Positions 3,987 through 34,508 are shown, numbered from the stretch's first letter. The stretch is DNA of 42,479 nt from Bacillota bacterium (GCA_021324255.1 JAJPJL010000021.1:1-42479), one strand, 5' to 3'. Notes: generated from the sequence alone by a model not told the origin. Numbers and translations are program-made.

Positions 3987-4490
3987 CTACGGAGCGCCGC
4001 GGACCAGCGTGACCCCCAAGGCGAGGATGGCGATTGAGAGCACCAGCACGATCCGACCGACCCAGGCGGCTCGCCGCCGGTAGCGGCGGAGTTGGGCGGG
4101 ATCCACGTCACCGAGTGCCAGGTGTGCCTGGCGGCTCGCCGAGATGTCGTGCCACGCGCTGATCAGGACAACGGCAAGCACGAGCATAAGTTTCAGGGCC
4201 AGCACGTGGCCAAACCATCCGCGCCACATCTCACCGTCCTGCACCTGCCGCCAACCGTATCCGCGAACCATCAGGTTTGCGCTCCCCGTGATTGCGAGCG
4301 TGAGCAGCGCGGCCCACCCAACCCACCGGAACCGGATGGCCGTAGCCCGGATCAGCGGAAGCGCCACGCCACGATAGTCGGGCTGCCGTAGCGCCGGGAG
4401 GAGAACCGCCGCGAGAAACACCATACCGCCAATCCAAATGCAGGCGGCGAGGATGTGGACCGAGACTGCGGCGATGTACCAGCCCATCAC
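3987..4490 (-). CDS. CopD-family membrane protein
   Basis: A 167-residue protein with four predicted membrane helices at about residues 5-30, 50-72, 90-112 and 138-160. The opening AAVSVHILAACIWIGGMVF is typical of CopD/DUF4149 proteins, with a conserved membrane His and the WIGG motif; a second His-bearing stretch is GHVLALKLMLVLAVV. Family members act in copper handling or bind heme in the membrane. The start is GTG at 4490 or ATG at 4487; the first overlaps the stop of the upstream NnrS-like gene (GTGA), indicating co-translation. It closes the operon running down from 8315. The partner CopC is not present. Confidence 0.82.
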   Translation of the reverse strand: MMGWYIAAVSVHILAACIWIGGMVFLAAVLLPALRQPDYRGVALPLIRATAIRFRWVGWAALLTLAITGSANLMVRGYGWRQVQDGEMWRGWFGHVLALKLMLVLAVVLISAWHDISASRQAHLALGDVDPAQLRRYRRRAAWVGRIVLVLSIAILALGVTLVRGAP

Positions 4491-5698
4491 TGCTCGTGCT
4501 CCACGGATGGCTTGGTTCGGGCCGCCGCTCGCGCGGGGACGTTCTTCCGCGGGTTAACATCGCCCAGTGTGGCGGCCGGCCGAGCAGTTTGACGTTGGAC
4601 CGCGAAGGCCGACGAGGTCGAGTTGAACAGGAACAGCACGATCGCGACGGCCCCGGCCAACCCACCCCAGGCCCGCACCCGGTCCCACCCGCCGAAATCT
4701 CCCAGCAGGCGCACAACGAGCGAGAAATTGAGCAGCCCGACATGGCTGTAGCACCACGCCCGATACGGGACGGCGCCGCCCAGGACCGCGGGGAAGATGA
4801 TCGGAGCGTGCGCGAAGACCACCGAGAATACGAACCCGAGGAACACCGTGTGCAGCATCGCGTCGTACCGCGGGCCCGCGACCGCGTCCCCGGATACCAG
4901 CCACAGAACGCCGCCGATTCCGAGCCAGACATATCCGGCCAGAAGACTGAGCCCGATGAACCGCGGCAGCCCGGCCCTCCGAACCGTATACCGTGCGATA
5001 TCGTACCGCCACAGCCAGGCGGCCAGCCCGACCATGGTGAGGCCGGCGATTGCTTGCCCGGCCTGGCGAGAGAAACCGGCCAGTACGATAGCCGCGACAT
5101 AAACGCACACGATCGCAATGATGGCGACCTGCCGGAACCGCGTGCCGCCTGCCACGCGGCTGAGCTCGAGCCGTTCGCCCACGACCGTGAGCACGAGGAA
5201 ACCTGTCAGGCTCGACACGAGAAACGGGACGGCGGCGCCCGCGAGCCACGCGATATTAGCTCCGAGCCACGTGAGCACCGCCACCGTCATGATGCCCGTG
5301 AACCACGTGAGTTGCCGCTGCACAATCCGGCCGAAGATGCAAACGAGGCCGAGGCTCCCGAGGGTGATAAGAGCTGGGCCGACCGGAGCCGGCGTGTCGG
5401 CCACAAGGGCCAGGGCCCCGAGCCCACTCAGAAGCGGCGCGGCGAATGCCCAGGGCTCCCGGATCGCGACCGCGCGTTCGACGCTGATGAGCGTACCGAG
5501 AAACCCCGACACCATAAGAGGCCCGTGAGCCGCGAGCAATATGGGGCCTGGGAATGGCAGGAGCCAGCCGATGCGCTCCAGGCCGGCCCACAGGCCGGCC
5601 AGCAGCGCCACAACGCCCAGGGCCATGAGCGCAAGACGGCCGGGGCGCCCGACGCCGAACCCAGCATGGAGCGGCGGTCCGCTCCGGGCTACCGCCAC
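4487..5698 (-). CDS. Polytopic NnrS-like membrane protein
   Basis: A 403-residue protein with about 11-12 hydrophobic helices beginning at LALMALGVVALLAGLWAG. Several helices carry conserved His or polar motifs: LLAAHGPLMVSGFLGTLISV, MLHTVFLGFVFSVVFAHAPI, and YSHVGLLNFSLVVRLLGD. These resemble NnrS and related heme-copper-type membrane proteins linked to nitric oxide responses, but the family assignment is by pattern, not by search. The C-terminal 50 residues are polar and cytoplasmic. The start is probably GTG 5698, overlapping the end of the cupin gene by ten bases; a GGAAGGA lies farther upstream than ideal. It is followed by copD with a four-base overlap. In this setting, a role in NO or heme/copper homeostasis is inferred. 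Confidence 0.7.
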   Translation of the reverse strand: MAVARSGPPLHAGFGVGRPGRLALMALGVVALLAGLWAGLERIGWLLPFPGPILLAAHGPLMVSGFLGTLISVERAVAIREPWAFAAPLLSGLGALALVADTPAPVGPALITLGSLGLVCIFGRIVQRQLTWFTGIMTVAVLTWLGANIAWLAGAAVPFLVSSLTGFLVLTVVGERLELSRVAGGTRFRQVAIIAIVCVYVAAIVLAGFSRQAGQAIAGLTMVGLAAWLWRYDIARYTVRRAGLPRFIGLSLLAGYVWLGIGGVLWLVSGDAVAGPRYDAMLHTVFLGFVFSVVFAHAPIIFPAVLGGAVPYRAWCYSHVGLLNFSLVVRLLGDFGGWDRVRAWGGLAGAVAIVLFLFNSTSSAFAVQRQTARPAATLGDVNPRKNVPARAAARTKPSVEHEQ

Positions 5699-6084
5699 CG
5701 GCCGCGGCGCAATCCTTCCGTGACCTCCGCGTGATCGGTATCTGTCGGCGGCGGCGTGACGAACGTCAGCGCCGTCATCCGGGTCGTGGCGAGCACCCCG
5801 CGTGCCTGGTCGCCAGGCACCACGGCAACGGCGCCCGGACCAACCTGCTCTTCCCGCTCGCCCGCAACGAGCCGGCCTTCGCCCTCCAAGATCACGATCG
5901 CGAGGTCCACGCTCGGATGGTGGACCGGGATGAACTGGCCGGGCTCCAGACACACCAACAGCACGCGGACCCGAGGTGTTTGTCCTACCGGGACGGTGGT
6001 AAAGCGGCCGCGGGCGAAAGATGCTGCCGCGCGATACGAGGCGAGAAATGCGGTCACGGCGACTCCGGCGCGCCGGCCGGTCAC
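5689..6084 (-). CDS. Cupin-domain protein
   Basis: A 131-residue single-domain cupin. Motif 1 appears as EPGQFIPVHHPSVDLAIVIL (two candidate metal His and a later Glu), and motif 2 as GPGAVAVVPGDQARGVLATT, within a small beta-barrel at about residues 35-110. The second motif lacks the usual His, so metal binding may be incomplete. The N-terminus includes a short basic/hydrophobic segment, not a signal peptide. The GTG start at 6084 overlaps the hemerythrin stop (GTGA) and its end overlaps the NnrS-like gene, so it is translationally coupled on both sides. Cupins in such clusters often sense or bind a small ligand; the specific one is unknown. Confidence 0.78.
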   Translation of the reverse strand: MTGRRAGVAVTAFLASYRAAASFARGRFTTVPVGQTPRVRVLLVCLEPGQFIPVHHPSVDLAIVILEGEGRLVAGEREEQVGPGAVAVVPGDQARGVLATTRMTALTFVTPPPTDTDHAEVTEGLRRGRWR

Positions 6085-6803
6085 ACGCCGGACACCCGCG
6101 CGATCCTGACCTGCCAGACTTCGGGACCCCGCTCCAGGTACTCCCAGCTGAATTGTCCGGTCAGATCCGCCTGGAACTGGTAGTAGAGGGGTTTGGGATC
6201 GTAGTCGTTCACGAGCGTGAACGCCTGCCCCGGCGCCAGCGCGCCAAAGGTCCCAAGAATTAGTGGGTGACGCCGGGACGGCGGAACCTCCCGGACATCC
6301 AGCACGTCTGCGGCAGGAGATCCCGGTTGTATGGGAGGTTCGTGCATCTGCTCCAGGACCCGTTGCTGCGCCGCCGCAGGCACGTACTGCTCGAACAAAG
6401 GCAGGTACACCTGCTCCTCTTTGGCCAGGTGTACGCAGAACAAGGCCTGCAGCCGGAGCATCAGGCGGCCGAGCTCACGCTCGAGCGCCGGGCGCTGGTC
6501 AGCGGACGCTGCCCGCAGACACCCGGCCAGGTCCTCGATCTTCGCGGTGTAGTCCTCGAGAAACCGATGATCGACCCGCATGGTCGCCGTGGCCATCCCG
6601 TGGGCCTTGAGAAGCGGCTCCACGGCCGGATACAGGTGTCGCTCCTCCCCGGCCGCGTGCGCGAGGAGTTCGCGCCTGAGGAACACCGCGAGATCAACGG
6701 GGTCCGCGCCTGGGGCACCCGATGTGATCGCGTCTGTACGCTCCTCGAGCTCCCGTGCAAGCGCCTGGTGGTGGCGCCGGAACGCCTCTCCAACGCTACT
6801 CAT
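6081..6803 (-). CDS. Hemerythrin-DUF2249 fusion protein
   Basis: A 240-residue cytoplasmic protein. Residues 1-145 form a hemerythrin HHE four-helix bundle with candidate di-iron ligands H11 or H12, H49, E53, H56, H79, H125 and E129, the last in VHLAKEEQVYLPLFEQY. Residues about 166-238 are a DUF2249 domain beginning VLDVREVPPSRRHPLI and including VNDYDPKPLYYQF. Hemerythrin-DUF2249 fusions bind oxygen or nitric oxide at a di-iron site and are typical of microaerobic and denitrifying gene sets. The ATG at 6803 is the first in frame. The stop overlaps the cupin start. The gene is 135 bases downstream of the DUF59 gene. Confidence 0.88.
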   Translation of the reverse strand: MSSVGEAFRRHHQALARELEERTDAITSGAPGADPVDLAVFLRRELLAHAAGEERHLYPAVEPLLKAHGMATATMRVDHRFLEDYTAKIEDLAGCLRAASADQRPALERELGRLMLRLQALFCVHLAKEEQVYLPLFEQYVPAAAQQRVLEQMHEPPIQPGSPAADVLDVREVPPSRRHPLILGTFGALAPGQAFTLVNDYDPKPLYYQFQADLTGQFSWEYLERGPEVWQVRIARVSGV

Positions 6804-6938
6804 GACGTCGCTCCTCTCCCCCCATGGGCTGCGATCGCCGTGGCCGCATAATCACGGACTCCTTCTCCCCATGGTCTCAGGGTGCGATCTCCCGAGCGTG
6901 CATCGCCTACCGGCCTTCTACCTGCTGTGGCCGCCGGC

Positions 6939-7247
6939 TCACGCGAGCCATCCAAGAGACACCTTTGCCAGATCCGACATCATCGCGGGTTCCCACCGCG
7001 GCTCCCACACGATATCGACCGCGACGGCACGAACTTCTGGAAAGCGCTGGCGAACGGCCGCCTCGATCGCGCGCTTCAGGTAATCGCCCAGCGGACAGGC
7101 GGGTGTTGTCATGGTCATCGTGACGCTCACCTCTCCGCCGTCCGCGACCTCGACGCCGTAGACCAGGCCCAAGTCCACGATATTCATGCCGAGTTCGGGA
7201 TCGTCCACGAGGCGCAGGACATCGCTGACCTCGTCCGCGGTCGTCAC
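6939..7247 (-). CDS. DUF59 (MIP18/PaaD-like) Fe-S assembly factor
   Basis: A 102-residue protein of the metal-sulfur cluster assembly family. It shows DDPELGMNIVDLGLVYGVEV, the conserved cysteine in TMTTPACPLGD, and the C-terminal WEPRWEPAMMSDLAK block. Members help load or repair Fe-S clusters. I chose GTG 7247 as the start (VTTADEVSD), four bases after the stop of the DUF1858 gene and with AGGG upstream; a frame open further upstream runs into DUF1858 coding sequence. Next to hemerythrin and Crp/Fnr genes it may serve cluster repair under NO or oxygen stress (inference). Confidence 0.86.
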   Translation of the reverse strand: MTTADEVSDVLRLVDDPELGMNIVDLGLVYGVEVADGGEVSVTMTMTTPACPLGDYLKRAIEAAVRQRFPEVRAVAVDIVWEPRWEPAMMSDLAKVSLGWLA

Positions 7248-7251
7248 CGGC

Positions 7252-7506
7252 TTATCCCTGCCGCCGGCGATTTCGGACTCGAGTGAGGCGTGTTGTCTTT
7301 CGGGCCGTGATCGCACGCCGGAGCTCCTTTACGAACGTATCGAGCGGTACGCGGTACACTGCTGCCACGTCCGCGACCGACTCGAACCGATTGATCGCGC
7401 ATCCCACGCACGACATGCGGCGCCTGACGAACACTCGCACGGTTCGCGGCCAGCGCGTCACCAACTCGGCGACGGTCGTGTGAATCAAGGGCGAAGTGGG
7501 TGACAT
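7252..7506 (-). CDS. DUF1858 small protein
   Basis: An 84-residue protein. Its core MSCVGCAINRFESVADVAA (Cys33, Cys36) and the flanking helices, with a TVAELVTRWPRTVRVF segment before it, match DUF1858, the domain also found at the N-terminus of RIC/ScdA di-iron repair proteins. The CxxC pair is conserved and probably redox-active or metal-binding. The ATG at 7506 follows GGGGAG. A longer in-frame start exists upstream without a ribosome site. The last 17 residues are basic. The gap to the DUF59 gene is only four bases, so the two are co-translated and are likely to act together. Confidence 0.85.
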   Translation of the reverse strand: MSPTSPLIHTTVAELVTRWPRTVRVFVRRRMSCVGCAINRFESVADVAAVYRVPLDTFVKELRRAITARKTTRLTRVRNRRRQG

Positions 7507-7580
7507 CGCTCCCCACGAGGACCGTATCCGATTGCCCCGACGCTGTCTTTGCTCCAGCGCAATAGTCGCTGAGGAAGCGT

Positions 7581-8315
7581 TCAACGGCTCCTGTCTCGCC
7601 CGCGGGCCGCGTTGCGCTCCACGATGCTGACGAGGCCGTGCGGGTCTCGCACGACCACGCGTTGCCGATCGGCCGTGATCAACCCCTGGGACTCCCACCC
7701 ACTGAGGATACGGCTCGCCGTGTAGAGGGTCGTACCTGTCAGCTCGGCTAGGTCGCGTCGCGACAAGGGCATGTCGATGAGGATGCCGCCTTCCACCCTG
7801 GCACCCGCCTTGTCTACCAAGCGCAGCAGCGCCTGGGCAAGACGCTGCTCCACCCTTTCGGCGACGAGCTCGGACAGGCGGTCCTGGAGTTCATGCACCC
7901 GGGCGACGAGAATCCGGACCGTATTGAGCGCGACGACCGGGTACTCGAGAAGCAACCGCGCGACGGTCTCGCCGTCCCACGCGAGGGCTTCGCTCGTCTG
8001 TACCGCCTCTGCCGACACGGGATAGGTCGCATCGCCAACCGCCGCGACCGCCCCGCAGACCTCACCGGGCCCGATGATCCGGACAATCACTTCTTGGCCA
8101 TCGGGGTGCACCTGGGTGAGCTTGACCTTGCCACGCACGAGGACGTACACGCCGGCGGCGCGGTTGCCCTGTCGAAAGAGCAGCGTACGACGCTCGAGAT
8201 GTACGCGTTTGGCGCGCTCCAGCACGGCTTGGACGTCTGCCCGCACAAGGCCTTGGAACAGCGCTGAACGTGACAGCAGTCCCTCCCACCTGTCTGACGG
8301 TATCGTTGGCGGCAC
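7581..8315 (-). CDS. Crp/Fnr-family transcriptional regulator
   Basis: A 244-residue regulator. An N-terminal cyclic-nucleotide-binding-type beta barrel (about residues 18-135) includes the LFRQGNRAAGVYVLVRGKVK segment, followed by a long dimerisation helix (VALNTVRILVARVHELQDRL) and a C-terminal winged helix-turn-helix (LSRRDLAELTGTTLYTASRI, then LSGWESQGLI). No N-terminal cysteine cluster is present, so it is not an Fe-S Fnr; heme-based NO or CO sensing, as in Dnr or CooA relatives, or another ligand, is possible. The start is GTG 8315, preceded by GAGGAG. It heads the minus-strand cluster ending at copD and probably controls it; its own site was not located. It is divergent from the CBS gene at 8582. 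Confidence 0.88.
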   Translation of the reverse strand: MPPTIPSDRWEGLLSRSALFQGLVRADVQAVLERAKRVHLERRTLLFRQGNRAAGVYVLVRGKVKLTQVHPDGQEVIVRIIGPGEVCGAVAAVGDATYPVSAEAVQTSEALAWDGETVARLLLEYPVVALNTVRILVARVHELQDRLSELVAERVEQRLAQALLRLVDKAGARVEGGILIDMPLSRRDLAELTGTTLYTASRILSGWESQGLITADRQRVVVRDPHGLVSIVERNAARGRDRSR

Positions 8316-9312: not shown

Positions 9313-10512
9313 TTAGCGCTCGTTGCGGCGGCGTCGCTGTGGCGGAAACGGCAATCGTGCCACAATCGTCGTCCCCTGACCAGGCGCCGAGATCAGCTGG
9401 AACGTACCGCTTACCAGCTCGGCTCGTTCGCGCATTCCGTCGAGCCCAAGCGTAGCTCTCGTTGGTGCCGCTTTCGTGTCGAACCCAATCCCATTGTCGC
9501 GGACCGCGACCGTCACCGAATCTTGGCGCTGGTCGATACGGATCTCCAACCGCGTCGCCTCGGCGTGGCGAAGCGCGTTGGTCGTGGCTTCCTGGATAAT
9601 CCGATAGGCCGCCGTTTCGACGTCCCGCGAACACCGGCTTTCGGTCCCGGCGGTCTTAAGCTCCACGTGCATCCCGGCCGGTTGCAGGTGACTGTGGACG
9701 TACGCGCGCACGGCTGCAACGAGACCGTACTCGTCAAGCACCGGTGGCCGCAAATCATACACGAGCTTGTGAATCTCCTCGAGGCCCTGATCGGTCATCG
9801 TACCGAACCGATCGAGTTCCGAGGCAATCCTGGCGCGTTCTGCTTCACCCAGGTGCGCGCGCAGATGTCTGAGTTGCATGCTGAGCGCAGACATCACCTG
9901 CCCCGCGTGATCGTGGAGGTCCTGCGCAATCCGGCGGCGCTCATCTTCTTGGGCGGTCAGGAGACGTTGCGTGAGCTGCCGCATGCGCGCTTCTCTGTGG
10001 CGCGCCTCCTCAAACAGCTGCACGCGCTGGACCGCAACCGCGACCTCATGACCCAGCGCTTCGAGCACATCCAGGTCCGCGCGGCCCAGCGACCCGCCTG
10101 CCGGAAGCAAGAGGTTCAAAAGACCGATCACGTCGCCCGCGTGAGAGCGCAGCGGAACGCTGGCATGCCGGTGCCTCTGCGGCGAGGCTGGAAGCGCCTG
10201 CTCAAGCCGGCGGCACTCCACAACGTTGACCGCCTGGGTAAGCTGACCGTCCTGCAGCATCTGAAGACATCGGCACTCTCCCGTCATCCGGTGCTTGCCG
10301 CCCATCAGTAGCGGCACCGGTAGATTCACGTCGGCGGCCAGCAAGAAATCATCTGTCTCCCCATCGCGCAGAAAGATCCACCCGGCCTCGGCTCCAGCCA
10401 GTTCAACAATTCGCGGCAACGCGCCATCGAGCGCCTCGCGGAGCGTGGCCGCGCGATTAAGACTCTGAGCCAATATCCGGAAGACCTCGGTCTTGCCCGC
10501 CTGCACCGTCAC
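9313..10512 (-). CDS. GAF sensor histidine kinase (NarX/DegS type)
   Basis: A 399-residue soluble sensor kinase. An N-terminal GAF domain (about 10-165) carries three cysteines, C80, C82 and C100, in GECRCLQML and VVECRRLE. The HisKA_3 dimerisation domain has the phospho-acceptor H200 in ERRRIAQDLHDHAGQ. The C-terminal HATPase shows the N-box IIQEATTNALRHAEA, then VRDNGIGFD and LGLDGMRERAE. No membrane helix is seen, so it senses a cytoplasmic signal, and the cysteines may carry the cofactor. The LuxR-type response regulator usual for this class is not adjacent. The start was taken as the most upstream one, at 10512. It is convergent with the CBS gene. Confidence 0.9.
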   Translation of the reverse strand: MTVQAGKTEVFRILAQSLNRAATLREALDGALPRIVELAGAEAGWIFLRDGETDDFLLAADVNLPVPLLMGGKHRMTGECRCLQMLQDGQLTQAVNVVECRRLEQALPASPQRHRHASVPLRSHAGDVIGLLNLLLPAGGSLGRADLDVLEALGHEVAVAVQRVQLFEEARHREARMRQLTQRLLTAQEDERRRIAQDLHDHAGQVMSALSMQLRHLRAHLGEAERARIASELDRFGTMTDQGLEEIHKLVYDLRPPVLDEYGLVAAVRAYVHSHLQPAGMHVELKTAGTESRCSRDVETAAYRIIQEATTNALRHAEATRLEIRIDQRQDSVTVAVRDNGIGFDTKAAPTRATLGLDGMRERAELVSGTFQLISAPGQGTTIVARLPFPPQRRRRNER

Positions 10513-10662
10513 GATCCCCGGTTCTCGGCCTCAGACGCTGGGGAATATCTCTCCATCATCGCCCCAGACGGGGTCCCGCGACTCCACGAGCCGTGCATTC
10601 ATAACATGATAACACGCGAGAGGGCCATGGTCGTTGCGCCTCAGCAATGACGTGCCACCCTG

Positions 10663-12021
10663 TCACGAGATACGCCATCGCCACTCGAATGCGAGCCGGC
10701 CCGACAACACAGGAGGGATCCACCGATAGGCGAGCATATAGGCCAAGCCGAACGCCGAAAGCGCGATCGCAACGGCGCCGGCCTCCGCTATCGTCGCGGC
10801 ACGTTCCCAAATACCGATGGTCATCAGGACCACCCCGGTGTTGCTCGCCCAGAACACGCCGCTGCCTACCGGCGGGGAGTACAGATCCGGTCTCCGGGAA
10901 ATCGCCGGCACGTCCGGGATCGTCGAGCGATAGTACCACATCAGAAAGGGCGCGATCTTGTACAGTTGCCCGATCACCGCCTGGGTGACCCACCCCAGGA
11001 GAAACAGGACGGCGACACATTCGCCCAGCCGATCGGGCGGCCCGCTGCGCACCGCCCCCAGGCTCCAGGCCACGGCGACGCCTGCCAGAACGATCGAGTA
11101 GCCCAGGACGGCGTACCAGTGGCGCACGTTCAGATCGGGTGCTCGACTACGGCGATGCTGAAGCACGTGCCCGACCTCCACAGCGAGGAGCACCAATGCA
11201 GCCGCTGCGGAGAGCGCCGCGACGCGAAGCGACCAGTCGAGTCTCCCCGCCACTCCGCCAAACGTCGAGACAATCGCCCATCCTGCGAGCAGCAGAACCG
11301 CCAGGCCTCTCGACCGGCTGGCCACCCTGGCGCCGTGGATCAAGGGTACCAGGCGGTAGAACGTCCCCACAACCATCAGGCCGAACCAGCCTCCGAGGCC
11401 GAGAGCCAGATGCACGACGAGTCCACGGTGTCCCACCAGGAGACCCGGCCAAAACCCGAGGCTCAGGTTCGCGGCGAGCATGGTACCCCAGAGCGTGACG
11501 AGACCAAGGCAGACAAACGCGACCGGCAGATGGAGCGGCATCGACGCCGGTCTCGACCGCGCCGCCCGCGCGGTCCAAAGCATCAACGCCACAAACCACA
11601 GCGACGCCAGGGCGACCCCGGCTCCCCCAACCGCGGCGAGAACGAACCGGCCCCCAAGGAACCCGACGACGAGTAACGCCGCGCTCACGGTGAACACCCC
11701 GTACAGGTACGGCAGCGTCGCTTCTCCCCGAACCCGAGCGCCGAGCAGCGCGGGCGCCATCTGGGCCGCCGCGCCGATGATCGTCATGGTGACCCAGCCG
11801 AGTGTCGCTATGTGCGTGCTCGCCAAAACGGGAGGTGCTTCCCAAGCGCCACGCGCCAGCAAGCGGGCCACCGCCACGAGGGAGATCCCGACGCCTGGGA
11901 ACCCGATACCGACCGCGGTCCACGTGAACCAGTTTCCGATCGTGAACGCGAGAGGGCCGGCGGTCGGAAGGGCGCGCTCACGTAGTGCCCCGCGCGTTCC
12001 CGCGTCCCCTGCTAGCGGCAT
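10663..12021 (-). CDS. Polytopic NnrS/CcoN-like membrane protein
   Basis: A 452-residue protein with about 12 membrane helices. Conserved histidines lie in STHIATLGWVTMTIIGAAAQ, in GHRGLVVHLALGLGGW and in RLVPLIHG. These patterns resemble heme-copper oxidase subunit I-like and NnrS-like proteins, but the full six-His ligand set of a true oxidase or NO reductase was not confirmed. The ATG at 12021 has an excellent ribosome site (GGAAGGAGAT); an upstream in-frame start would add 15 residues without one. It is distantly reminiscent of the protein at 4487-5698. A heme-binding or NO-related membrane function is plausible, the exact role unknown. Confidence 0.72.
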   Translation of the reverse strand: MPLAGDAGTRGALRERALPTAGPLAFTIGNWFTWTAVGIGFPGVGISLVAVARLLARGAWEAPPVLASTHIATLGWVTMTIIGAAAQMAPALLGARVRGEATLPYLYGVFTVSAALLVVGFLGGRFVLAAVGGAGVALASLWFVALMLWTARAARSRPASMPLHLPVAFVCLGLVTLWGTMLAANLSLGFWPGLLVGHRGLVVHLALGLGGWFGLMVVGTFYRLVPLIHGARVASRSRGLAVLLLAGWAIVSTFGGVAGRLDWSLRVAALSAAAALVLLAVEVGHVLQHRRSRAPDLNVRHWYAVLGYSIVLAGVAVAWSLGAVRSGPPDRLGECVAVLFLLGWVTQAVIGQLYKIAPFLMWYYRSTIPDVPAISRRPDLYSPPVGSGVFWASNTGVVLMTIGIWERAATIAEAGAVAIALSAFGLAYMLAYRWIPPVLSGRLAFEWRWRIS

Positions 12022-12317
12022 ATCTCCTTCCGGGACCTGCGCGTGCGGCGAACTCGGGCAGGCCATGTGGGCGGCACGGTCCAGGAGTTAGCCGAAGAAT
12101 GGCGCGGCCCCTGTCGAACCGTGAACGCCCGCGGCGGGATGCAAATCGCGGTCAGCGGCCGCACGAGCCCGCCGACCCTACTGCCGGTCTTCCAAGAGGG
12201 ACCCGGTCACTTTTACTCGGACTCCAACTCCCGCCGGGCGCGTGGCGGCTGGGGATCACAGCCCGGGATCAGGCGGTCAGGTACTGCGGACATACGTTAT
12301 CGTCCGTCTCTGAAAGC

Positions 12318-13772: not shown

Positions 13773-13955
13773 TCATGGATACCGCATCACGCGATCAACC
13801 GCCGAACGGACATGGGGTGTCCCCAGATACGCGTCCGCGTCCTGCAGGGTGACCCAGGTCCAGGTGCGTTCGTCGAGGTCCGCGCCGAGTATCGTCTCGT
13901 GACCCGGCTGCCACGCCGCGGACATCGCGATCAACCCGGTGGCGGCTGACGCCAT
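13773..13955 (-). CDS. 60-aa ORF coupled to cydB
   Basis: A 60-residue frame whose ATG at 13955 shares a base with the cydB stop (TGATG), the same junction type as cydA-cydB. It starts MASAATGLIAMSAAWQPGHE and continues ILGADLDERTWTWVTLQDAD to a stop at 13773. It is not the hydrophobic single-helix CydX found in Proteobacteria: only the first dozen residues are apolar. No family is recognised. Real translation is supported by the overlap and the amino-acid composition, not by homology. It could be an accessory of the bd oxidase, or a chance frame. Confidence 0.45.
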   Translation of the reverse strand: MASAATGLIAMSAAWQPGHETILGADLDERTWTWVTLQDADAYLGTPHVRSAVDRVMRYP

Positions 13956-14971
13956 CAGTAGTGTGCGCCGGCGTTGATGCGCACCTTGCCGGCGAACACC
14001 CGGTACACGACCACCTGGTACAGCAAAATCAGTAGGACGCCGGGAAGCAGCCAAAACGCCGCGGTGACGAGCCCGCTCGATGAGGCAGCCGCGTTGGCTA
14101 CTGTCAGGCTCCGCTCGGGAAACGGCTGCGACCGGAGGAGGTACGGATAGGCGCCGATCGCCGTTGCCGCAAGCAGCGCGGCCATGAACCCGCTCGACCC
14201 CAGGAAGGCCGCGCTGTGGCGGCGTCGGCGGTGAGCCCGCCGCATCACGATGACGCACCATGCCGCGGCAAGCGGCGCGAGCAGCCAGATCGGGTGGGTC
14301 CGATAGTTCCCCAGCAACTCGGGCCGCAACGCAAATGTCACGGCGGTCAGCACGATCCCCAGGGCCAGTACAGCGGCCCACAAAGGCTCCGCCGCGCGGG
14401 AGGCGCGCTCGTAGACCGGACCGTCGGCTTTCAGGCACAGATAGTACGCGCCGTGGAGCATGAGAAGCGCGACGCTAAACAAGCCCATGACGAGCGCATA
14501 CGGGTTGAGGATCCACCCGAAGAGACCCTGGAAATACCCGTTGGCACCGATCGGCACGCCCGTCACCACGTTGCCGACCGCGACGCCGTAGAAGAGCGCA
14601 AGTAGCAGGCTGCTGCCGGAGAAAATGACATCCCACGCGCCCTGCCATAACGGGTCGCTGATGTGGTGCCGAAATTCGAGCGCGATGCCGCGCCCCATCA
14701 GGAGCCACAGGACGATCATCAATGGCAGGTAGAAGCCGCTAAAACCTACCGCAAAGGCTCGGGGAAAGGCCAAAAAAGCGCCGACGCCAAAGCCGAGCAG
14801 CCATACCTCATTGGCGTCCCAGACCGGCCCGATCGCGTTGAGCGCGGTTCGACGCTCGGCATCCGCGCGCGCAACCGCCAGGTGCAGGGCCCCGACGCCC
14901 AGGTCGAATCCGTCCAAGATCGCGTACGCCACGACCAGCACGACCAGAATAATAAACCAGAACGTGGCCAT
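13955..14971 (-). CDS. cydB: Cytochrome bd oxidase subunit II
   Basis: A 338-residue membrane protein, the CydB subunit that pairs with CydA in the quinol:oxygen oxidoreductase. It begins MATFWFIILVVLVVAYAILD and has the hallmark GFDLGVGALHLAVAR with the following NAIGPVWDANEVWLLGFGVG motif, then about nine helices in all. The C-terminus is short (VRINAGAHY). The ATG at 14971 overlaps the cydA stop (TGATG), so the subunits are co-translated. Length is normal for the family (about 335-380). The cydDC export genes are not in the window. Confidence 0.95.
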   Translation of the reverse strand: MATFWFIILVVLVVAYAILDGFDLGVGALHLAVARADAERRTALNAIGPVWDANEVWLLGFGVGAFLAFPRAFAVGFSGFYLPLMIVLWLLMGRGIALEFRHHISDPLWQGAWDVIFSGSSLLLALFYGVAVGNVVTGVPIGANGYFQGLFGWILNPYALVMGLFSVALLMLHGAYYLCLKADGPVYERASRAAEPLWAAVLALGIVLTAVTFALRPELLGNYRTHPIWLLAPLAAAWCVIVMRRAHRRRRHSAAFLGSSGFMAALLAATAIGAYPYLLRSQPFPERSLTVANAAASSSGLVTAAFWLLPGVLLILLYQVVVYRVFAGKVRINAGAHY

Positions 14972-16314
14972 CAGCGCGCCGCCTCCGACGGCGCGGTTTG
15001 CTCGTCGGGACCGCGCAGCACGAGCAGAACCGCCAAAAATACCGCGAGCACGCCGAGGAGAGCATACATTCCGGCGAACCCGAGCACCGTGAAGATCGTC
15101 TCCCCGGCTTCGACGGTGGGCGAGACCCCCGCGGCGGTCCGCAGCAGCCCGTAGATCAGCCACGGCTGGCGGCCGACCTCGGTCACGACCCAGCCGGCTT
15201 CATTCGCGATATAGGGAAAGGGCAGCAGGAGCATCAACACCCAGAGGAACCACCGGCTCGTGAACAGGGCGCCGCGCGACCACAGCGCGACCCCCAGCAG
15301 CAGCGCGGCGATCAAGATCGTCCCCAGTCCGACCATGATGTGGTAGGCGTAATAGGTGATTTGTACGAGCGGCCATTCTGTCTGGGGGTAGTCGTTGAGC
15401 CCCTTCACCTCGGCGCGCAGGTTGCCATAGGCGAGGAAGCTCAGGGCGTCCGGCACGAAGACGGGATCTAGCAGCCGATGCTCTGTCGTCGACGGCATCC
15501 CGATGATCGCGATCGGCGCGCCGTACCGTGTTGCGAACAATCCTTCCATCGCGGCGAGTTTGACCGGCTGATAGGCTGTCACGTTGCGGCTGTTCATGTC
15601 GCCGGTTGGAAACAGCTGCGTCAACGAGAACACCACGCCGACCCCGACCCCGAGCGCGACGGACAGTCGCCCGAACTCGACGTGCCGGCCGGCCAGCAGG
15701 TAGTATGCGCCGACCGACGCCGTCACCACCGCGGCGGACAGGACGGCGCCGTTGATCACGTGGGCGTACTGCCACCACAGGAACGGGTTGCCGAGCAGCG
15801 CCCCAAGGCTGGCCAACTGCACGGTCCCGTCCGCAGCGATGCGGTACCCCACCGGATGCTGCATCCAGGCATTCGTGGCGGTGATGAACAGCCCCGACAA
15901 CCACGCGCCCACGGCGACCAGCACGGCCGACAACCAGTGCGCCCGCGGCGACACCCGGCCCTCCCCAAACAGGAGGATCCCCAGGAATGTGGACTCGAGG
16001 AAGAACGAAAAGACGCCTTCGAGTCCGAGGGTCTGCCCGATGACCCCGCCGGCGAACGCGGAAAACTGCGCCCAGTTGGTCCCAAATTGAAACTCCATCG
16101 GGATACCGGTAATCACGCCGACGGCGAAGTTGAGCGCGAAGATCTTCGTCCAGAAACGGGCCGCCGCCGCGTACCGCGGTTCGCCGCGGGTCAGGTGCAG
16201 CGTCTTAAGCACAACGATCAGCGGAGCCAACCCCATCGTCAGGATCGGAAAGAGGTAATGAAACATGACGGTGAACGTGAATTGAATGCGGTCAGCAATC
16301 GCCGTGTCCGTCAT
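14971..16314 (-). CDS. cydA: Cytochrome bd oxidase subunit I
   Basis: A 447-residue catalytic subunit carrying hemes b558, b595 and d; it oxidises quinol and reduces oxygen to water at high affinity without pumping protons. Recognisable blocks are FTVMFHYLFPILTMGLAPL (heme-ligand His near residue 19), GIPMEFQFGTNWAQFSAFAG, GLEGVFSFFLESTFLGILLF (acidic residues of the proton path), the HVINGAVLSAA His, and EAGWVVTEVGRQPWLIYG. At 447 residues it belongs to the short Q-loop class. I chose ATG 16314 (MTDTAIADRIQFT) with AGGTG upstream; a GTG three codons earlier is an alternative. It is first in the operon. Confidence 0.95.
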   Translation of the reverse strand: MTDTAIADRIQFTFTVMFHYLFPILTMGLAPLIVVLKTLHLTRGEPRYAAAARFWTKIFALNFAVGVITGIPMEFQFGTNWAQFSAFAGGVIGQTLGLEGVFSFFLESTFLGILLFGEGRVSPRAHWLSAVLVAVGAWLSGLFITATNAWMQHPVGYRIAADGTVQLASLGALLGNPFLWWQYAHVINGAVLSAAVVTASVGAYYLLAGRHVEFGRLSVALGVGVGVVFSLTQLFPTGDMNSRNVTAYQPVKLAAMEGLFATRYGAPIAIIGMPSTTEHRLLDPVFVPDALSFLAYGNLRAEVKGLNDYPQTEWPLVQITYYAYHIMVGLGTILIAALLLGVALWSRGALFTSRWFLWVLMLLLPFPYIANEAGWVVTEVGRQPWLIYGLLRTAAGVSPTVEAGETIFTVLGFAGMYALLGVLAVFLAVLLVLRGPDEQTAPSEAAR

Positions 16315-16719
16315 GCAGGGCACCTGTCGGTTGTAACACTTGAACTTTGGCGTCGAACGCGAAACTTCACCGGTGTTGAAGCCAGGTCGACACGAGCTTC
16401 ACCGTCCCCCCCATCAGGTCCCCGCAGACGGAGGCGGGTACTCGTCGCTCTGCAGCCGCGCCGTGAGATCGTCGGAATCGCCGCTGCAGACGTCTCCGGT
16501 ACTCTCGTGAGTCATTTGGCGGTCATCGCGGGACTCATTCCCACATCACCCCGGGCGGTACTCCAAGTCCAGGCGCAGGTGCGGTGCCTCGACGAGCGGA
16601 ATAGGTTTTTGAGTCAGCAAGAGTACAGCGAATCCCACGCCTCGGCGGTGAAATCCCCCAGGTCGTGACAAGAGCGGTTCGGAGCGCGGAGTTGCACAGG
16701 CGCCCGAAGGAGGAATGCG
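16315..16719. other. Intergenic region, no gene seen
   Basis: About 400 bases between the start of cydA (minus) and the AhpD-like gene (plus). It must contain the promoters of both. I see no convincing reading frame, terminator or repeat. A loose palindromic stretch (TTGAACTTTGGCGTCGAA, about 16338-16355) lies upstream of cydA but does not match a Fnr box. Confidence 0.45.
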
Positions 16720-17080: not shown

Positions 17081-17794
17081 CTATTGTGCCTTCGCGTGTG
17101 TTTGGAGGTACTTCAGGACCAGCAGCAGATCATCCCCGCTCAGGCCGGCACGATCGGCCATGTTTTGGAGGGTTCCCGGCCACTGGTTGGCCGTGTACTG
17201 TTCGGGTGCATAGAGAGAGTGGCAGGTGCTGCAGTGGGATTCATACACCTGGCGGCCGTGCGTCCATACGGCCTGCAGGTCGGACGTGAGGGCCCCGGCG
17301 GCGACCCACCCGGTGACCGTCACTTGCGTCCACACCGTCCCGTAACTGTCCTTCGTCTGCGAACCCATCTGCCGCTCAGCCTGGTCCGGCGCCGTGACAT
17401 TGACAAGCACCACGCGCTGCCCGACCGCCGCCACGATCGCGTTGCTTCCCGCGGATGACCAGCCCTGGACGGACACGTGGACGTCCGAGGCACGTGTCTC
17501 CGTGACTGACAGCGGCGTCCCGGGTGTGACGGTCCCGACCGCTGTCCCGCCCGGGTCCTTTCTCAGTGGCGTCGATCCTGCGGCATACGCGGTCTTTCCC
17601 ACCGCCGGCGGGGCGGCCGCGGCGAGGCGCATCGACGGGGTCGTCCCGAGCGGTGCTGGCGGCGCATCGGTAAGAGCCCCCCCTCGAGACCATACCAAGC
17701 CGGGCGCCGCAAGACAGGCCGCGACGCCCATCGCAACCAGCACCGTCCGTCGCAACATACCCGGCATCTCCTCGAGTCCCTCCGCGGTCGTCAT
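17081..17794 (-). CDS. Monoheme cytochrome c with SH3-like domain
   Basis: A 237-residue exported cytochrome, probably the electron donor to the adjacent reductases. A signal/anchor segment near residues 13-35 (MLRRTVLVAMGVAACLAAPG) is followed by an SH3-like segment (GKTAYAAGSTPLRKDPGGTA, then GTVTPGTPLSVTET). At the C-terminus is a single heme motif, CSTCH, inside YESHCSTCHSLYAPEQYTAN and QWPGTLQNMADRAGLS. That block resembles the C-terminal heme domain of TorC pentaheme cytochromes, whereas the four N-terminal hemes are missing. The start is ATG 17794 after GGGGAG; an internal start at the second or third Met of the leader is possible. It is the last gene of the reductase operon. Confidence 0.82.
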   Translation of the reverse strand: MTTAEGLEEMPGMLRRTVLVAMGVAACLAAPGLVWSRGGALTDAPPAPLGTTPSMRLAAAAPPAVGKTAYAAGSTPLRKDPGGTAVGTVTPGTPLSVTETRASDVHVSVQGWSSAGSNAIVAAVGQRVVLVNVTAPDQAERQMGSQTKDSYGTVWTQVTVTGWVAAGALTSDLQAVWTHGRQVYESHCSTCHSLYAPEQYTANQWPGTLQNMADRAGLSGDDLLLVLKYLQTHAKAQ

Positions 17795-17833
17795 AGACTC
17801 CCCGAGATCGCTGGTACCGGTCCGGACACACAC

Positions 17834-18541
17834 TCACCTGGCCGCGTGTTCGGCGCCGGCAATCACGTGACATAACCACGCATCGTCGCGCCGCAGAAAC
17901 GCCACGAGCAACCCCGCCGCCTCTCGGTAGAATCCGGACACGGTTTCGCGCGCCACATCCTCGGCCCATCGCGGTGCCCAGCCCAACAAGTGCCCCTGGA
18001 GGAATGCAAGCTGCTTTCGATAGCTCCGTGCGGCATCCGCATCCGCGGCTTCGATGGTGGGGCTGCGCTCCGCGAGATGCTGCATGATCGCCAGCTCGAC
18101 GGCCACGTGGTCGGGAGGGGCACCGAACTCGCGCCCGACCTCAAGCCCCTCATCGCGCAGTACCGCGGCGACCTCGGAAAACGCTTCTCCGTAGAACCGT
18201 TGGATCTGGCCTGCATAGGCCGATTCGTACGGTGGTGCCAACCCGGGACCCGGGCCGATGAACAGCCGCGCGTACTCGACGGCCAAGTCGCCGACGACGT
18301 CGGCCGGGACTCGCGTCCTGGACGCGGCGACGGACCGAAGGAGGCTTCCGGCCTCGCGCTCGACGCGGCAGTCGGCCGCGACGTGCCGCAGCCGCGCCTG
18401 CGTATCGGTGGCAGAGAGGCGCGTCCATCCGTCCTGGGTCAGCTCCCGCGCAAAGATCGCCGACAGCGTCGCGTACATGGCGGCCCGGGAAGACGCGCTG
18501 TCGGCCGCGTTGGGGCGTCCTTGTGCGTGCGCCGTCATCAC
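17834..18541 (-). CDS. TorD-family molybdoenzyme chaperone
   Basis: A 235-residue cytoplasmic chaperone that binds the Tat leader and apo-form of the reductase while the molybdenum cofactor is inserted. It is mostly helical, with the family motifs LAVEYARLFIGPGPGLAPPY followed by ESAYAGQIQRFYGEAFSEVA, then PPDHVAVELAIMQHLAERSP and the later HLLGWAPRWAEDVA. These fit TorD/DmsD proteins (about 200-240 residues). The start is GTG 18541 or the next ATG; GTG is the better spaced from AGGAG. It begins five bases from the stop of the reductase at 18546. One chaperone apparently serves two reductases. Confidence 0.9.
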   Translation of the reverse strand: MMTAHAQGRPNAADSASSRAAMYATLSAIFARELTQDGWTRLSATDTQARLRHVAADCRVEREAGSLLRSVAASRTRVPADVVGDLAVEYARLFIGPGPGLAPPYESAYAGQIQRFYGEAFSEVAAVLRDEGLEVGREFGAPPDHVAVELAIMQHLAERSPTIEAADADAARSYRKQLAFLQGHLLGWAPRWAEDVARETVSGFYREAAGLLVAFLRRDDAWLCHVIAGAEHAAR

Positions 18542-18545
18542 GAAG

Positions 18546-20990
18546 TCACGCTCCTGGCGGCGACCGAAACGCCGTCACGGCCGGAGGCACGCCGACGTAC
18601 TTCTCTACCTCCACCAGCGCCGTGTGCGACGGATTGCCATCGGCCAGGCGCGAACTCGGGACATCGGAGGTGAGCATGTTGACGTTCCCGTGGCGGTCCA
18701 GGGTCCCCGGGCGGCCGGATTCGAGAGGATCGTACCATCCGCCCTCGTGCATGGCCACCACCCCGCGCCGTGTGCGCGCGGTGACGACGGCACCGGCCAG
18801 CGTCTGCCCGCGGTCGTTGTACACGCGCACGAGGTCGCCGTTGGCGATCCCCCGGGCGGCGGCGTCCTGGGGATGAATCCAGATCGGTTCGCGGTCAGCG
18901 ACCTCGTACGTGCGGCGCAACCCCGTTTCATCGAGCTGGGAGTGCAGCCGCTCGCGGGGGTGCGGCGAGACCAGGTGCAGGGGAAACCGGGTCGCCAGCG
19001 GGCTCCTGAGCCACTCGGGCGGCGGCACCCACACGGGATGCGGCGGCACGTCGTCGTACCTGAACGAGGCGATCGTCTCGGAGTAGATCTCGATCTTGCC
19101 GGATGGGGTCGACAACGGGTGGTTGGCGGGGTCGGCCCGGAACCCAGCGTACGCCACGACCTGGTTCGCCGCCTCGGGCACGGGAAACTCGAGGTAGCCG
19201 CGCTGCCAAAAGACGTCGAAATCGGGGAGCTCGGCGCCGCCGGCGCCGGTCTGTTGCCGCGCGGGCGCTTCGGCATTGCGGGCGTTCCACTGCTGCTGCG
19301 CCGCCCTGTAGAACTGCCGCAGCCACGCCATCTCGTCCTTGCCCTCCGTGTACTGCGGGCCGAACCCGAGCCGCTCGGCCAAGGCAGCGCAGATATCGAA
19401 GTCGTGCCGCGCCTCGAAGAGTGGCGGCACGACCTGCTGCATCGCGAGGATGAATTTGTCGGTGCCCACGAGGTCGTTGCGCTCGAGCGTGGTGGTCGCG
19501 GGTAGCACGATGTCGGCGTGCTTGGCCGTCGCTGTCCAAACGTAGTCGTGCACGATCGTCACCTCCGGACGCTGCCACGCCCGCAGCGTGCGGTTCGTGT
19601 CCTGTGCGTGATGCAGTGGGTTCCCCCCCGCCCAATAGACCAGTTTGATGTCGGGGTACGTGACGGTGCGCCCGTCGTACTCGATCATCTTTCCCGGATT
19701 GAGCAGCATGTCGACCCACATGTTGATCGGCACGAAATCCTTGACGGGGTTGCTCCCCGCCGGTAGTCCAGGAAGCGGGGGCGCGCTGCCGACTGGTGAG
19801 CCGAGCCCGCTCGGGAAGTTGATCTGCGCACCGCCGCCCGGCAGTCCGATCTGCCCCAGCATGGCCGCGAGCGTGATCATCATCCATACCGGTTGCTCTC
19901 CATGCGCGGCCCGCTGCAGTGAAAACCCGCCGACGAGCGCCGTCCGCGACCGGGCCATGCGACGCGCCAGCGCCCGGATCGTGGCGGCCGGCACGTCCGC
20001 GATCGCCGCGGCCCATTCCGGCGACTTCGGCTGACCGTCGGCCTTGCCGCTGACGTAGTCCGCGAACCGGTCGAACCCGACCGTATAGTTCGCCAGAAAC
20101 TCCTTGTCGTGCAGGTTCTCCATGACCAAGGCGTGCGCGATGCCGAGGAGCAGCGCCGTGTCGGTGTTGGGACGGATCGCGATCCGCTCGGTGCGGAGAT
20201 ACTGATCCGTGTCGGTCTCCAACGGGTTCACGGAGACGACCGGCGTCCTCTTGTCGCGAAGCTGGGTGAGCCATCCTTTGTCGAGGTGGGCGCCATCGCC
20301 GCCGGAGAGAATCTCGGCCGTGATTAGTGGATCCGTGCCGATGAGGACGACCAGCGTGCTGTGCTGCACGATCGTCGGCCACGCGGACGCCAGAGGCCGC
20401 GCGTCGCCGAGCACGTGCGGCGTGATCACGGGCAGGACGGGCGCGCTGTAGGTGTTGACGTACGACACGTAGCCGCCAAACATCCCCAGCATGCGCTGGA
20501 GCGCCTGGGTAGCGCCGTGAAACTTGCCCGCGCTCTGCCAGCCGTAGCTGCCACCGTAGATCGCCCGGTTGCCATATTGGCTCTTGACGCGCCGCAGTTC
20601 CGCCGCCACGATGTCGAGGGCCTGGTCCCACGACACGCGGACAAACGGTTCGACGCCGCGGCCCGTCGTGTCGCTCCGCCCGCGATCACGGTAGAAGCCC
20701 TGCCGGACCATGGGAGATTTGATGCGGTTCGGCGCGTACAAGACGTCCCGCATCACGGTGACCATGCGGTTCGGGTCGGGGTCGCGGGCGAACGCCCGCG
20801 TGCGGACGAGCCGGCCGCCGGCGACGTCCGCGGTGAACGCGCCCCAGTGCGCTACGCTGAGGCGGGTCACCGGCGCCGCCGGTGGTGCGGCGCTCGCCTG
20901 TATCGCGCGCACCAGTGGCGCCGCAGCAAGACCCCCGATCGTCATGCCGGTATCGCGCAGCAGCGCGCGTCGTGTGAGCCTGTGCATCAT
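18546..20990 (-). CDS. Tat-exported molybdopterin S/N-oxide reductase, copy 1
   Basis: An 814-residue periplasmic-type molybdoenzyme of the DMSO reductase family, in the TorA/BisC/DorA (type III) group. The Tat leader is HRLTRRALLRDTGMTIGG. Active-site residues are visible: Y149 and W151 in GGSYGW, and S182 in NTYSAP, whose 31-residue spacing from the Trp matches the Mo-ligand Ser of DMSO reductase. Molybdopterin-binding motifs include VYWAGGNPLHHAQDTNR and the C-terminal GNPSHTALVEVEKYVGVPPA. No N-terminal Cys cluster for Fe-S is present, consistent with the group. The substrate may be DMSO, TMAO, a biotin sulfoxide or another oxide; this cannot be decided here. I chose ATG 20990, preceded by GGGAGG. 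Confidence 0.9.
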   Translation of the reverse strand: MMHRLTRRALLRDTGMTIGGLAAAPLVRAIQASAAPPAAPVTRLSVAHWGAFTADVAGGRLVRTRAFARDPDPNRMVTVMRDVLYAPNRIKSPMVRQGFYRDRGRSDTTGRGVEPFVRVSWDQALDIVAAELRRVKSQYGNRAIYGGSYGWQSAGKFHGATQALQRMLGMFGGYVSYVNTYSAPVLPVITPHVLGDARPLASAWPTIVQHSTLVVLIGTDPLITAEILSGGDGAHLDKGWLTQLRDKRTPVVSVNPLETDTDQYLRTERIAIRPNTDTALLLGIAHALVMENLHDKEFLANYTVGFDRFADYVSGKADGQPKSPEWAAAIADVPAATIRALARRMARSRTALVGGFSLQRAAHGEQPVWMMITLAAMLGQIGLPGGGAQINFPSGLGSPVGSAPPLPGLPAGSNPVKDFVPINMWVDMLLNPGKMIEYDGRTVTYPDIKLVYWAGGNPLHHAQDTNRTLRAWQRPEVTIVHDYVWTATAKHADIVLPATTTLERNDLVGTDKFILAMQQVVPPLFEARHDFDICAALAERLGFGPQYTEGKDEMAWLRQFYRAAQQQWNARNAEAPARQQTGAGGAELPDFDVFWQRGYLEFPVPEAANQVVAYAGFRADPANHPLSTPSGKIEIYSETIASFRYDDVPPHPVWVPPPEWLRSPLATRFPLHLVSPHPRERLHSQLDETGLRRTYEVADREPIWIHPQDAAARGIANGDLVRVYNDRGQTLAGAVVTARTRRGVVAMHEGGWYDPLESGRPGTLDRHGNVNMLTSDVPSSRLADGNPSHTALVEVEKYVGVPPAVTAFRSPPGA

Positions 20991-21096
20991 GCGTGCTTCC
21001 ACCTCCCGAGTAGACTCAACCGGACGCGTCCCCGCGTCCGAGGCTCTACCACAACATCTCCCCGCCCGCCTGCGACCGGCGACCTGGCGCACCGCC

Positions 21097-23529: not shown

Positions 23530-24054
23530 CGCTGATCCTCCACGTGGCGATTCGCGTCGTCGGTGTTCACGGTAGCCTATCGGCACATCGGGCTTGCGTG
23601 TCCGTCGACACGTTGCTCGTGCCATGCACAACGAGCGATGCGCGGGTCGCGAGGAACACTGGAAAGTCGGACATCTCTAACCTCCGTATCCTCGGCTTTG
23701 CGTCATTGAGTCCGGTATCAGCGTAAACGCGCGCTCTCGCGTTCCGCTATCGGACACTCAACCGATTCCTGCATCGGTCCAGGATCACATCACGCGAAGA
23801 GAAAACTCGCCCCAGGCAACCCCCCCACTATCCAGGGGGTGACCCGCAAGGAACCAGCGGCGCATTGGTCGCATAGGATGCGGGGGTGCTTTCGACAGGC
23901 GATCCTCCGCCGTGCGTTGGTTTGCAAGATTGGTGGTCCCGGGCGGCGGGGCTCCACGATGCTGGCTGGTCCAAGATTGAGATTCGATCGAGCCAGAACC
24001 GGCGCCACGGCCTGACGCGCACTGGGCTTCCACGGCCGATGAGGAGGGCGTGCT
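23530..24054. other. Divergent control region, no gene seen
   Basis: About 525 bases between the reductase operon and the ABC permease. It is the probable site of both promoters. It contains a short GC hairpin (ACCCCCTGG complementary to the C-run near 23819-23842, on the minus strand) but no gene-like frame. I looked for riboswitch motifs (ykkC, TPP) upstream of the ABC genes and found no match. Confidence 0.5.
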
Positions 24055-30719: not shown

Positions 30720-30947
30720 CGACGCGACGCCAGGCGCCTCCTGGTGGCGCCGCAGCCCGCGATCTCACCGCGGCCGGCGCTCGACCGACCGCGGCATGGA
30801 GATTCACCGGCCGGGTCCGCGCCCGAGAGCGCACCCAAAACCGCCCAGGACGGGAAAATACCGGCAAACGGCGAAGAACGCCGGTGGCGTGCCGCGCGAC
30901 ACCGGCTCGCCTGCGCGCGTAAATTCCTCACCAAGGACCCTGCCGTC

Positions 30948-33341: not shown

Positions 33342-33362
33342 GGTAGGCCCCGGGGGCGGATC

Positions 33363-34508
33363 GTGGCATCCACGCGCATTCTCGCGGTCAACGTCGGCTC
33401 CTCGTCGCTCCGGGTTGACCTCTGGAACGTCCCCGGCCCCGCGCCGGTCACGGTCCTGCGGGCCGATCGCATCGGCGCCCCGCGGGCGACGGTCGCGGAC
33501 GGCGGCCGCGAGGAAGAGACCCCGGGCTTTCCGGACCATGCGGCGGCGCTGGACGCGCTGCTCGGGCGCCTCGGACCCGCGGAGCTGGACTGCGCCGGGC
33601 ATCGGGTGGTGCACGGCGGACCGCGCCATCGGGAGCCCGCGTGGGTCACGGACGAGGTGCTCGCCGACCTGGACGCGCTCGCCGAACTCGTCCCGCTCCA
33701 CGTGCCGCCCGCGCTTCGGGTGATTCGGCACCTGGCGCGCGCGCGCCCCGGCCTGCGCCAGGCCGTGGTCTTTGACACCGGGTTCCACGCCACGCTCCCC
33801 GCGCGCGCCGCCGAGTATGCCGTGCCCGCGGCGTGGCGGGCGGCCGGGGTCCGCCGGTATGGGTTCCACGGCCTCGCGTGCGCGGACGCGGTTGCCCAAC
33901 TCGGCTCGGAGCTGCGCGGGCGCGCGGTCCTGCTGCACTTGGGGGCCGGATGCTCGGCCACGGCGCTCCGCGACGGCCGGAGCGTGGACACGACGATGGG
34001 GCTCACGCCGCTCGAGGGTCTCGCGATGGCGACGCGGTCCGGCGACCTCGATCCGGCGATCCCGCTGTATCTCCAGCGCCGGGAGCGATGGCCCGCGGAG
34101 CGGGTGGAGCACGCGCTCAATCACGAGTGCGGGCTTCTCGGCCTGTCGGGCGTATCCGGCGACATGAAGACGCTCCTCGACCGCGCGGGCGAGCCCGCGG
34201 TGCGGCTCGCGATCGAAGTGTTTTGCTACCGCGCGGCGAAGGCGGTCGGGGCGTTCGCGGCCGCGCTCGGCGGCTGCGAGCAGGTGGTATTCACGGGCGG
34301 CGTCGGGGAGCACGCGGCGCCGATCCGCGCGGAGATCATCAGCCACCTGGCGTTCCTCGGCGCCCACCTGGACGAGCGCGCCAACGCCGCCAACGCTCCG
34401 GTGATTTCCGGCCCGCAGAGCCGCGTGGCCGTCCACGTTGTCCGGATTGATGAGGGCCGCCAGATCGCCCTGGCAACGGCGCGCCTGCATCGCGCCCGCC
34501 AGGCCTAA
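33363..34508 (+). CDS. ackA: Acetate kinase
   Basis: A 381-residue kinase converting acetyl-P and ADP into acetate and ATP, taking the product of the adjacent phosphoketolase. ASKHA motifs are visible: ILAVNVGSSSLRVDLW (Asn near residue 10), CAGHRVVHGGP, VVFDTGFHATLP, LHLGAGCSATALRDGRSVDT, TMGLTPLEGLAMATRSGDLD, and VVFTGGVGEHAAPIR. One variation is GFHGLAC where most acetate kinases have GFHGTSH. The length is slightly short of the usual 390-405. GTG 33363 is the start; a purine-rich stretch precedes it. The phosphate acetyltransferase gene was not seen. Confidence 0.9.
   Translation: MASTRILAVNVGSSSLRVDLWNVPGPAPVTVLRADRIGAPRATVADGGREEETPGFPDHAAALDALLGRLGPAELDCAGHRVVHGGPRHREPAWVTDEVLADLDALAELVPLHVPPALRVIRHLARARPGLRQAVVFDTGFHATLPARAAEYAVPAAWRAAGVRRYGFHGLACADAVAQLGSELRGRAVLLHLGAGCSATALRDGRSVDTTMGLTPLEGLAMATRSGDLDPAIPLYLQRRERWPAERVEHALNHECGLLGLSGVSGDMKTLLDRAGEPAVRLAIEVFCYRAAKAVGAFAAALGGCEQVVFTGGVGEHAAPIRAEIISHLAFLGAHLDERANAANAPVISGPQSRVAVHVVRIDEGRQIALATARLHRARQA

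Follow-up and report, generated by a model that had tools for sequence, protein, structure and literature searches.

A Crp/Fnr-linked gene set around an unnamed oxidase-fold membrane protein, a candidate accessory module of nitrogen-oxide respiration

We analysed a stretch of 42,479 nucleotides from a Bacillota bacterium (GCA_021324255.1, JAJPJL010000021.1:1-42479), hereafter the window, in which seven genes run on the minus strand from 8315 to 3987. The first encodes a Crp/Fnr-family regulator (7581..8315), with a GTG start at 8315 in a frame open to 8504 and matches to PF00027 (1e-19) and PF13545 (4e-17). It is followed by a DUF1858 protein bearing a CxxC redox-disulfide motif (7252..7506; PF08984 3e-10; TIGR03980 63 bits against a cut-off of 45) and by a DUF59 protein of the MIP18/SufT-like kind (6939..7247), the GTG start of which was set by alignment with relatives, and which matches PF01883 (3e-20) but stays below the SufT/DUF59 equivalog cut-offs (TIGR02945, 94 versus 143 bits; TIGR03406, 88 versus 203). 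Next come a hemerythrin (HHE) protein with a C-terminal DUF2249 domain (6081..6803; PF01814 8e-14, PF10006 7e-30), with conserved His/Glu and HDPKPLYYQ motifs, and a small single-domain cupin (5689..6084; PF07883 5e-7), which conserves an EPGQFIPVHxP motif and, in the alignment of relatives, keeps one histidine and lacks the second cupin histidine. The last two genes encode membrane proteins: an unnamed protein of 12 transmembrane (TM) helices, here called POLY (4487..5698), for which no family was found in Pfam (E 0.1) or NCBIfam, and a CopD-like protein (3987..4490; PF05425 2e-7, 31.7 bits against a cut-off of 32.1; NF033808 partial). Domain matches and coordinates agree with the order and the single strand given by the original prediction, as do the overlaps of 4 bases (hemerythrin/cupin), 10 bases (cupin/POLY) and 4 bases (POLY/CopD) and the 4-base gap between DUF1858 and DUF59. 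It had omitted two larger gaps, of 74 bp between Crp/Fnr and DUF1858 and of 135 bp between DUF59 and hemerythrin, in view of which the seven genes look like two or three coupled pieces. The 74-bp gap holds an operator-like palindrome, TTGCGCTGGAGCAA, of the form TTG-N8-CAA (FixK2/NnrR type; 7549..7562, minus strand), 43-56 bp upstream of the DUF1858 ATG. No nitric oxide (NO) reductase or nitrite reductase gene lies in the window, as had been claimed for the surroundings of the cluster.

Of 61 relatives searched with the POLY protein, 14 gave a match, one of them at E 8e-4 only, and the named-genome records, mostly contigs of metagenome-assembled genomes (MAGs), comprise Chloroflexota, Deltaproteobacteria, Betaproteobacteria, Magnetospirillum, Myxococcota, Solirubrobacteraceae, Bacillota and Salinivenus. 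Thirty POLY loci, cited here by L numbers, were examined using profiles made from the first matches, a partner being counted at any distance within the retrieved stretch. DUF59 and cupin genes are each present in 14 loci (several of the cupins being weak matches), hemerythrin-DUF2249 in 12, Crp/Fnr in 11, CopD in 10 and DUF1858 in 7. The recurrence of these families around POLY exceeds chance, four control loci of the window's own genome (L057-L060, 53.5 kb) having given no match to the module-family models. Arrangements range from HHE-DUF59-cupin-POLY-CopD (L036) and Crp/Fnr-HHE-DUF1858-POLY (L038) to DUF1858-DUF59-HHE-POLY with a divergent Crp/Fnr-CopD pair (L039 and L040), and to DUF59-POLY with a TTGATCGCCATCAA box in Magnetospirillum sp. 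SS-4 (L022). The exact seven-gene order was found in no relative among the 30 loci, which argues for a functional set rather than a frozen operon; of the gene order conserved across phyla that had been envisaged, the recurrence of the families in many phyla stands, and the order itself does not, being shuffled, with partial subsets. The cupin, the position of which the original prediction had singled out as unusual, does lie in that place but is not a one-off, since its adjacency to POLY recurs beyond the window's family (L031, L019, L024, L028, L030, L015). A CopD-like gene is present in the POLY loci of nine cases besides the window; it abuts POLY in the window and in L032-L036, and sits just upstream of it in L017.

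Several of these loci also carry genes of nitrogen-oxide metabolism. NirK or NirK-like genes occur in seven of the 30 (L014, L026, L029, L032-L035), quinol NO reductase (qNOR) in L035 and L039, NrfHA in L018, and NnrS in L020 and in L069, the latter overlapping L017. The row reads qNOR-NirK-DUF59-DUF59-HHE-cupin-POLY-CopD in L035, with Crp/Fnr divergent; in L032-L034, Crp/Fnr-HHE-DUF59 faces cupin-POLY-CopD, with NirK within the locus; and a Chloroflexi MAG (L018, 3726-9032) has NrfH-NrfA-Crp/Fnr-DUF1858-cupin-protoglobin-POLY, the protoglobin possessing a ThiS-like tail. In the window's own family (L032-L035) the NirK-like proteins reach 186-190 bits, short of the 296 set for the equivalog, and retain every copper ligand of types 1 and 2 as well as the catalytic Asp/His, their HSVDFH, HCGTPPAFMH..M, FHVIG and VTH motifs aligning with true NirK. 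Among genomes of the order, nine have both POLY and NirK (E below 1e-40), four have POLY only, five have NirK only and 25 lack both (P 0.0014 by a one-sided Fisher test, for species that are not independent, given their shared ancestry). A link of the module to nitrogen-oxide metabolism is thereby supported. The prominence of NirK, the commonest reductase neighbour, the CopD-like gene abutting POLY and the one conserved histidine of the cupin are also consistent with POLY, CopD and the cupin handling copper or heme for the maturation of NirK and NO reductase (NOR), the remaining proteins giving iron-sulfur (Fe-S) or thiol help. POLY is, however, kept in loci beside NrfHA or without NirK, and it has no conserved known copper-binding motif beyond three histidines; we regard a metal-cofactor role as quite unlikely.

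The structural model of POLY has 12 TM helices, a predicted local distance difference test score (pLDDT) of 90 and a predicted template-modelling score (pTM) of 0.87. Heme-copper oxidase subunit I tops both the Foldseek and the VIA-align lists, with Z 29.6 over 351 residues for cbb3 CcoN (8smr_E) and Z 27.8 for cNOR NorB (4xyd_A), unrelated rows lower in the Foldseek list having a probability below 0.3; the likeness to such subunits covers the 12-TM fold over 340-358 residues at Z 26-30. Across 30 aligned sequences the invariant residues are H58, E74-R75, E175-R176, D233, D279, H283 and H297, and the model places H58 in TM2 and both H283 and H297 in TM10. Neither TM6 nor TM7 of the window's POLY contains a histidine, and no histidine is invariant between TM3 and TM9, from which we conclude that the CuB/FeB site is absent. 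As modelled, POLY is a homologue of heme-copper oxidase subunit I by fold, without the CuB/FeB ligands, and it would most likely hold a bis-histidine heme b between H58 of TM2 and H283 of TM10. It differs from subunit I also in having no detectable sequence similarity to it, and no subunit II/III is seen beside POLY in the window. The fold, with its score against cNOR NorB, and the NirK neighbours, for which most loci have no NOR close by, could suggest that POLY reduces NO itself, as a new type of NO reductase, but TM6/TM7 is the required seat of the missing ligands and qNOR stands directly beside POLY in some genomes (L035, L039), and we hold this to be very improbable. POLY had earlier been labelled NnrS-like. 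It resembles NnrS (PF05940) in its NO-regulon context, TM2 histidine, His-bearing TM10 and weak profile similarity, but sequence does not support the label: there is no PF05940 match at E 0.1 (488-aa frame), the profile-profile probability is 7-39% only, and the two occur as separate genes in one locus (L020, G065).

The regulatory sequences extend the pattern. The 21 kb lying upstream of module genes contain 17 TTG-N8-CAA sites, whereas the remainder of the loci would lead one to expect 2.2 (P 2e-10). As this form was recognised via published work on Bradyrhizobium (PMC6710368) and picked after some sites had been seen, 14 control palindromes of the same design were used, and these gave nothing comparable. 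The sites of L018, L039 and L040 lie at almost the identical place to that of the window. The box has no global enrichment in the own genome (7 sites versus 10 for the reversed control), the stringent form TTGYKCNNGMRCAA matching seven times in 3.74 Mb, the window operator included. Another stringent match belongs to a second cluster of the same genome (L082 6495-8890, G000:C73), arranged as Crp/Fnr-TTGCGCGCGCGCAA-cupin-hemerythrin-hemerythrin, where it separates the Crp/Fnr gene from the cupin, and cupin and hemerythrin-like genes stand in a row resembling this cluster in L035 (17121-19001). A de novo dyad search for the operator returned GC-rich noise, no better than shuffles. The Crp/Fnr recognition helix, GTTLYTASR, is conserved in relatives, and no N-terminal Cys cluster of the [4Fe-4S] type is conserved among ten aligned regulators, which indicates that the regulator is not FNR proper. 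The nirK, norC and nnrR genes of Bradyrhizobium have the same type of box in front of them, as does a DUF1858 gene that depends strongly on NnrR (PMC6710368). The sites support Crp/Fnr control of the module, of the FNR/FixK/NnrR/DNR type, via TTG-N8-CAA operators. Such boxes are common to FNR and FixK regulators, and the signal may be low oxygen and not NO: the Crp/Fnr protein would respond to oxygen or redox status, with the membrane proteins aiding the assembly of microaerobic oxidases, for instance the cytochrome bd that has its genes nearby, or passing electrons to them. The cydAB genes and two molybdoenzymes within the window, the lack of a detected NirK, NrfA or Hcp in the own genome and the closeness of POLY to cbb3 CcoN agree with such a low-oxygen module. 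The identified neighbours in relatives, however, include no recurring oxidase genes, and NirK, qNOR, NrfHA and NnrS recur instead; we consider it the main rival, and an unlikely one.

We propose, with a probability of roughly 0.55 for the reading as a whole, that the seven genes are an accessory module of nitrogen-oxide respiration in which POLY is a noncatalytic membrane heme protein. The module is best read as serving sensing, protection or maturation, and not as being itself a reductase. The Crp/Fnr protein, of FNR/FixK/NnrR/DNR binding type, would activate the downstream genes via the TTG-N8-CAA box upon a change in NO or oxygen; the DUF1858 (CxxC) and DUF59 proteins would act as thiol and Fe-S helpers, and the hemerythrin-DUF2249 protein as a di-iron binder of NO/O2. 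The cupin, POLY and the CopD-like protein may form one membrane unit, in which POLY, an NO-responsive or electron-passing heme protein, would protect, mature or feed nitrite and NO reductases with no NO reduction of its own. Our inferences concern the binding of heme, the nature of the signal and the role in protection or maturation. DUF2249 proteins are induced in haloarchaeal denitrification, in Haloferax (PMC11218638), and DrpB, a DUF1858/DUF2249 protein, acts in the nitrate respiration of Thermus (PMC6282519). A further proposal, tentative and clearly below even odds, is that POLY may represent an undescribed branch of the heme-copper fold that lost catalysis and now works in the membrane, with hemerythrin-DUF2249 and the cupin, as an NO/redox sensor or as a conduit for heme in many phyla.

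Several observations weigh against the proposed role in nitrogen-oxide respiration. About 18 of the 30 POLY loci have no nitrogen-oxide gene in the retrieved stretch. In the own genome (~95% complete) no NirK, NrfA, Hcp or NnrS was found, and PF02239 gave a weak propeller match at most. Its sole NOR candidate is a heme-copper subunit I on another contig (L057 9346-10890, G000:C85), in which HNMVN replaces the HxxxY tyrosine motif and beside which lies a prenyltransferase-like gene; it is possibly an unusual NO reductase, a label to be taken as a lead only. No POLY was found in two same-genus genomes, boxes of the FNR type serve pure oxygen control too, and no sequence-profile similarity of POLY to heme-copper oxidases (qNOR/cbb3) was found, so that the relation rests on the fold. 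The original prediction of an NO-type module under a Crp/Fnr regulator is supported by the NirK, qNOR, NrfHA or NnrS genes in loci of relatives and by the FixK2/NnrR-type operator upstream of module genes. That the module would be self-contained is not supported, in view of the partial and shuffled sets of relatives and the missing NirK, NrfA and Hcp, and neither is a function in Fe-S repair, the own genome being without Hcp and the hemerythrin scoring 26 (NF041614), 20 (TIGR03652) and 15 (NF008221) bits against DnrN/RIC/YtfE cut-offs of 300, 205 and 254.

The individual parts of the module belong to kinds already known, and there are known NO regulons that include NnrS, DUF1858 and hemerythrin. 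The NnrR/DNR/FixK2 regulons (Bradyrhizobium, PMC6710368; survey, PMC1274295) share with it the Crp/Fnr regulator, the TTG-N8-CAA box, DUF1858, a polytopic membrane protein and NirK/NOR partners. Compared with those regulons, which hold nnrS, DUF1858, nirK and nor, the module adds hemerythrin-DUF2249, DUF59, the cupin and CopD, its polytopic protein is not Pfam NnrS, and the window is without a reductase. The Thermus DrpA/DrpB system of the nar element (PMC6282519) likewise combines DUF1858 and DUF2249 with Crp/Fnr-type control and nitrogen-oxide respiration; the module, by contrast, distributes the two domains over separate proteins, with DUF2249 joined to the hemerythrin domain, and a nar operon was not seen in the window. 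For the combination of these parts with cupin and CopD, and for an unnamed oxidase-fold family without a second metal site, no description was found in the family libraries and literature searched, and an earlier one is possible. Six families with loose annotation are linked, by recurrence and a shared operator, to the metabolism of nitrogen oxides, and the module exposes a family of oxidase-fold proteins without a second metal site. Many partial denitrifiers have unnamed genes beside their reductases; if the role in NO sensing or reductase maturation is true, it bears on the avoidance of NO toxicity and on the leakage of nitrous oxide (N2O) in lineages with incomplete pathways.

Other features surround the module. 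A second TTG-N8-CAA box, TTGCGCCTCAGCAA (10634..10647, no strand assigned), lies upstream of a gene for a NarX/LiaS-type GAF histidine kinase (9313-10512, minus strand; kinase domains by Pfam), and its membership in the module is uncertain. A second unnamed polytopic protein with invariant histidines, POLY2 (10663..12066, minus strand), is found near POLY also in L032, L040 and L013, has a weak profile match to it and is possibly an associate of the module; its structure model from the single sequence was unusable (pLDDT 47). Among the relatives, paired small membrane proteins (~130-145 aa) with an H-x2-TLGW motif stand beside POLY in L023, L024, L026, L028 and L030, mostly Chloroflexi, one such protein giving a marginal COX1 match (E 0.01), and a chlorite-dismutase-family gene (PF06778) is beside POLY in a same-order genome (L038 7459-8157). 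In the window, a transposase gene (PF05598; 1693-3561, minus strand) lies immediately 3' of the module. Two tandem molybdopterin oxidoreductases with a mutual identity of 70% occupy 18546-23631 (minus strand), after which come a chaperone of the TorD/NarJ type (17834-18541), a protein resembling cytochrome c (17081-17833) and cydAB (13955-16323), and phosphoketolase, then acetate kinase, are encoded at 30744-34508 on the plus strand.

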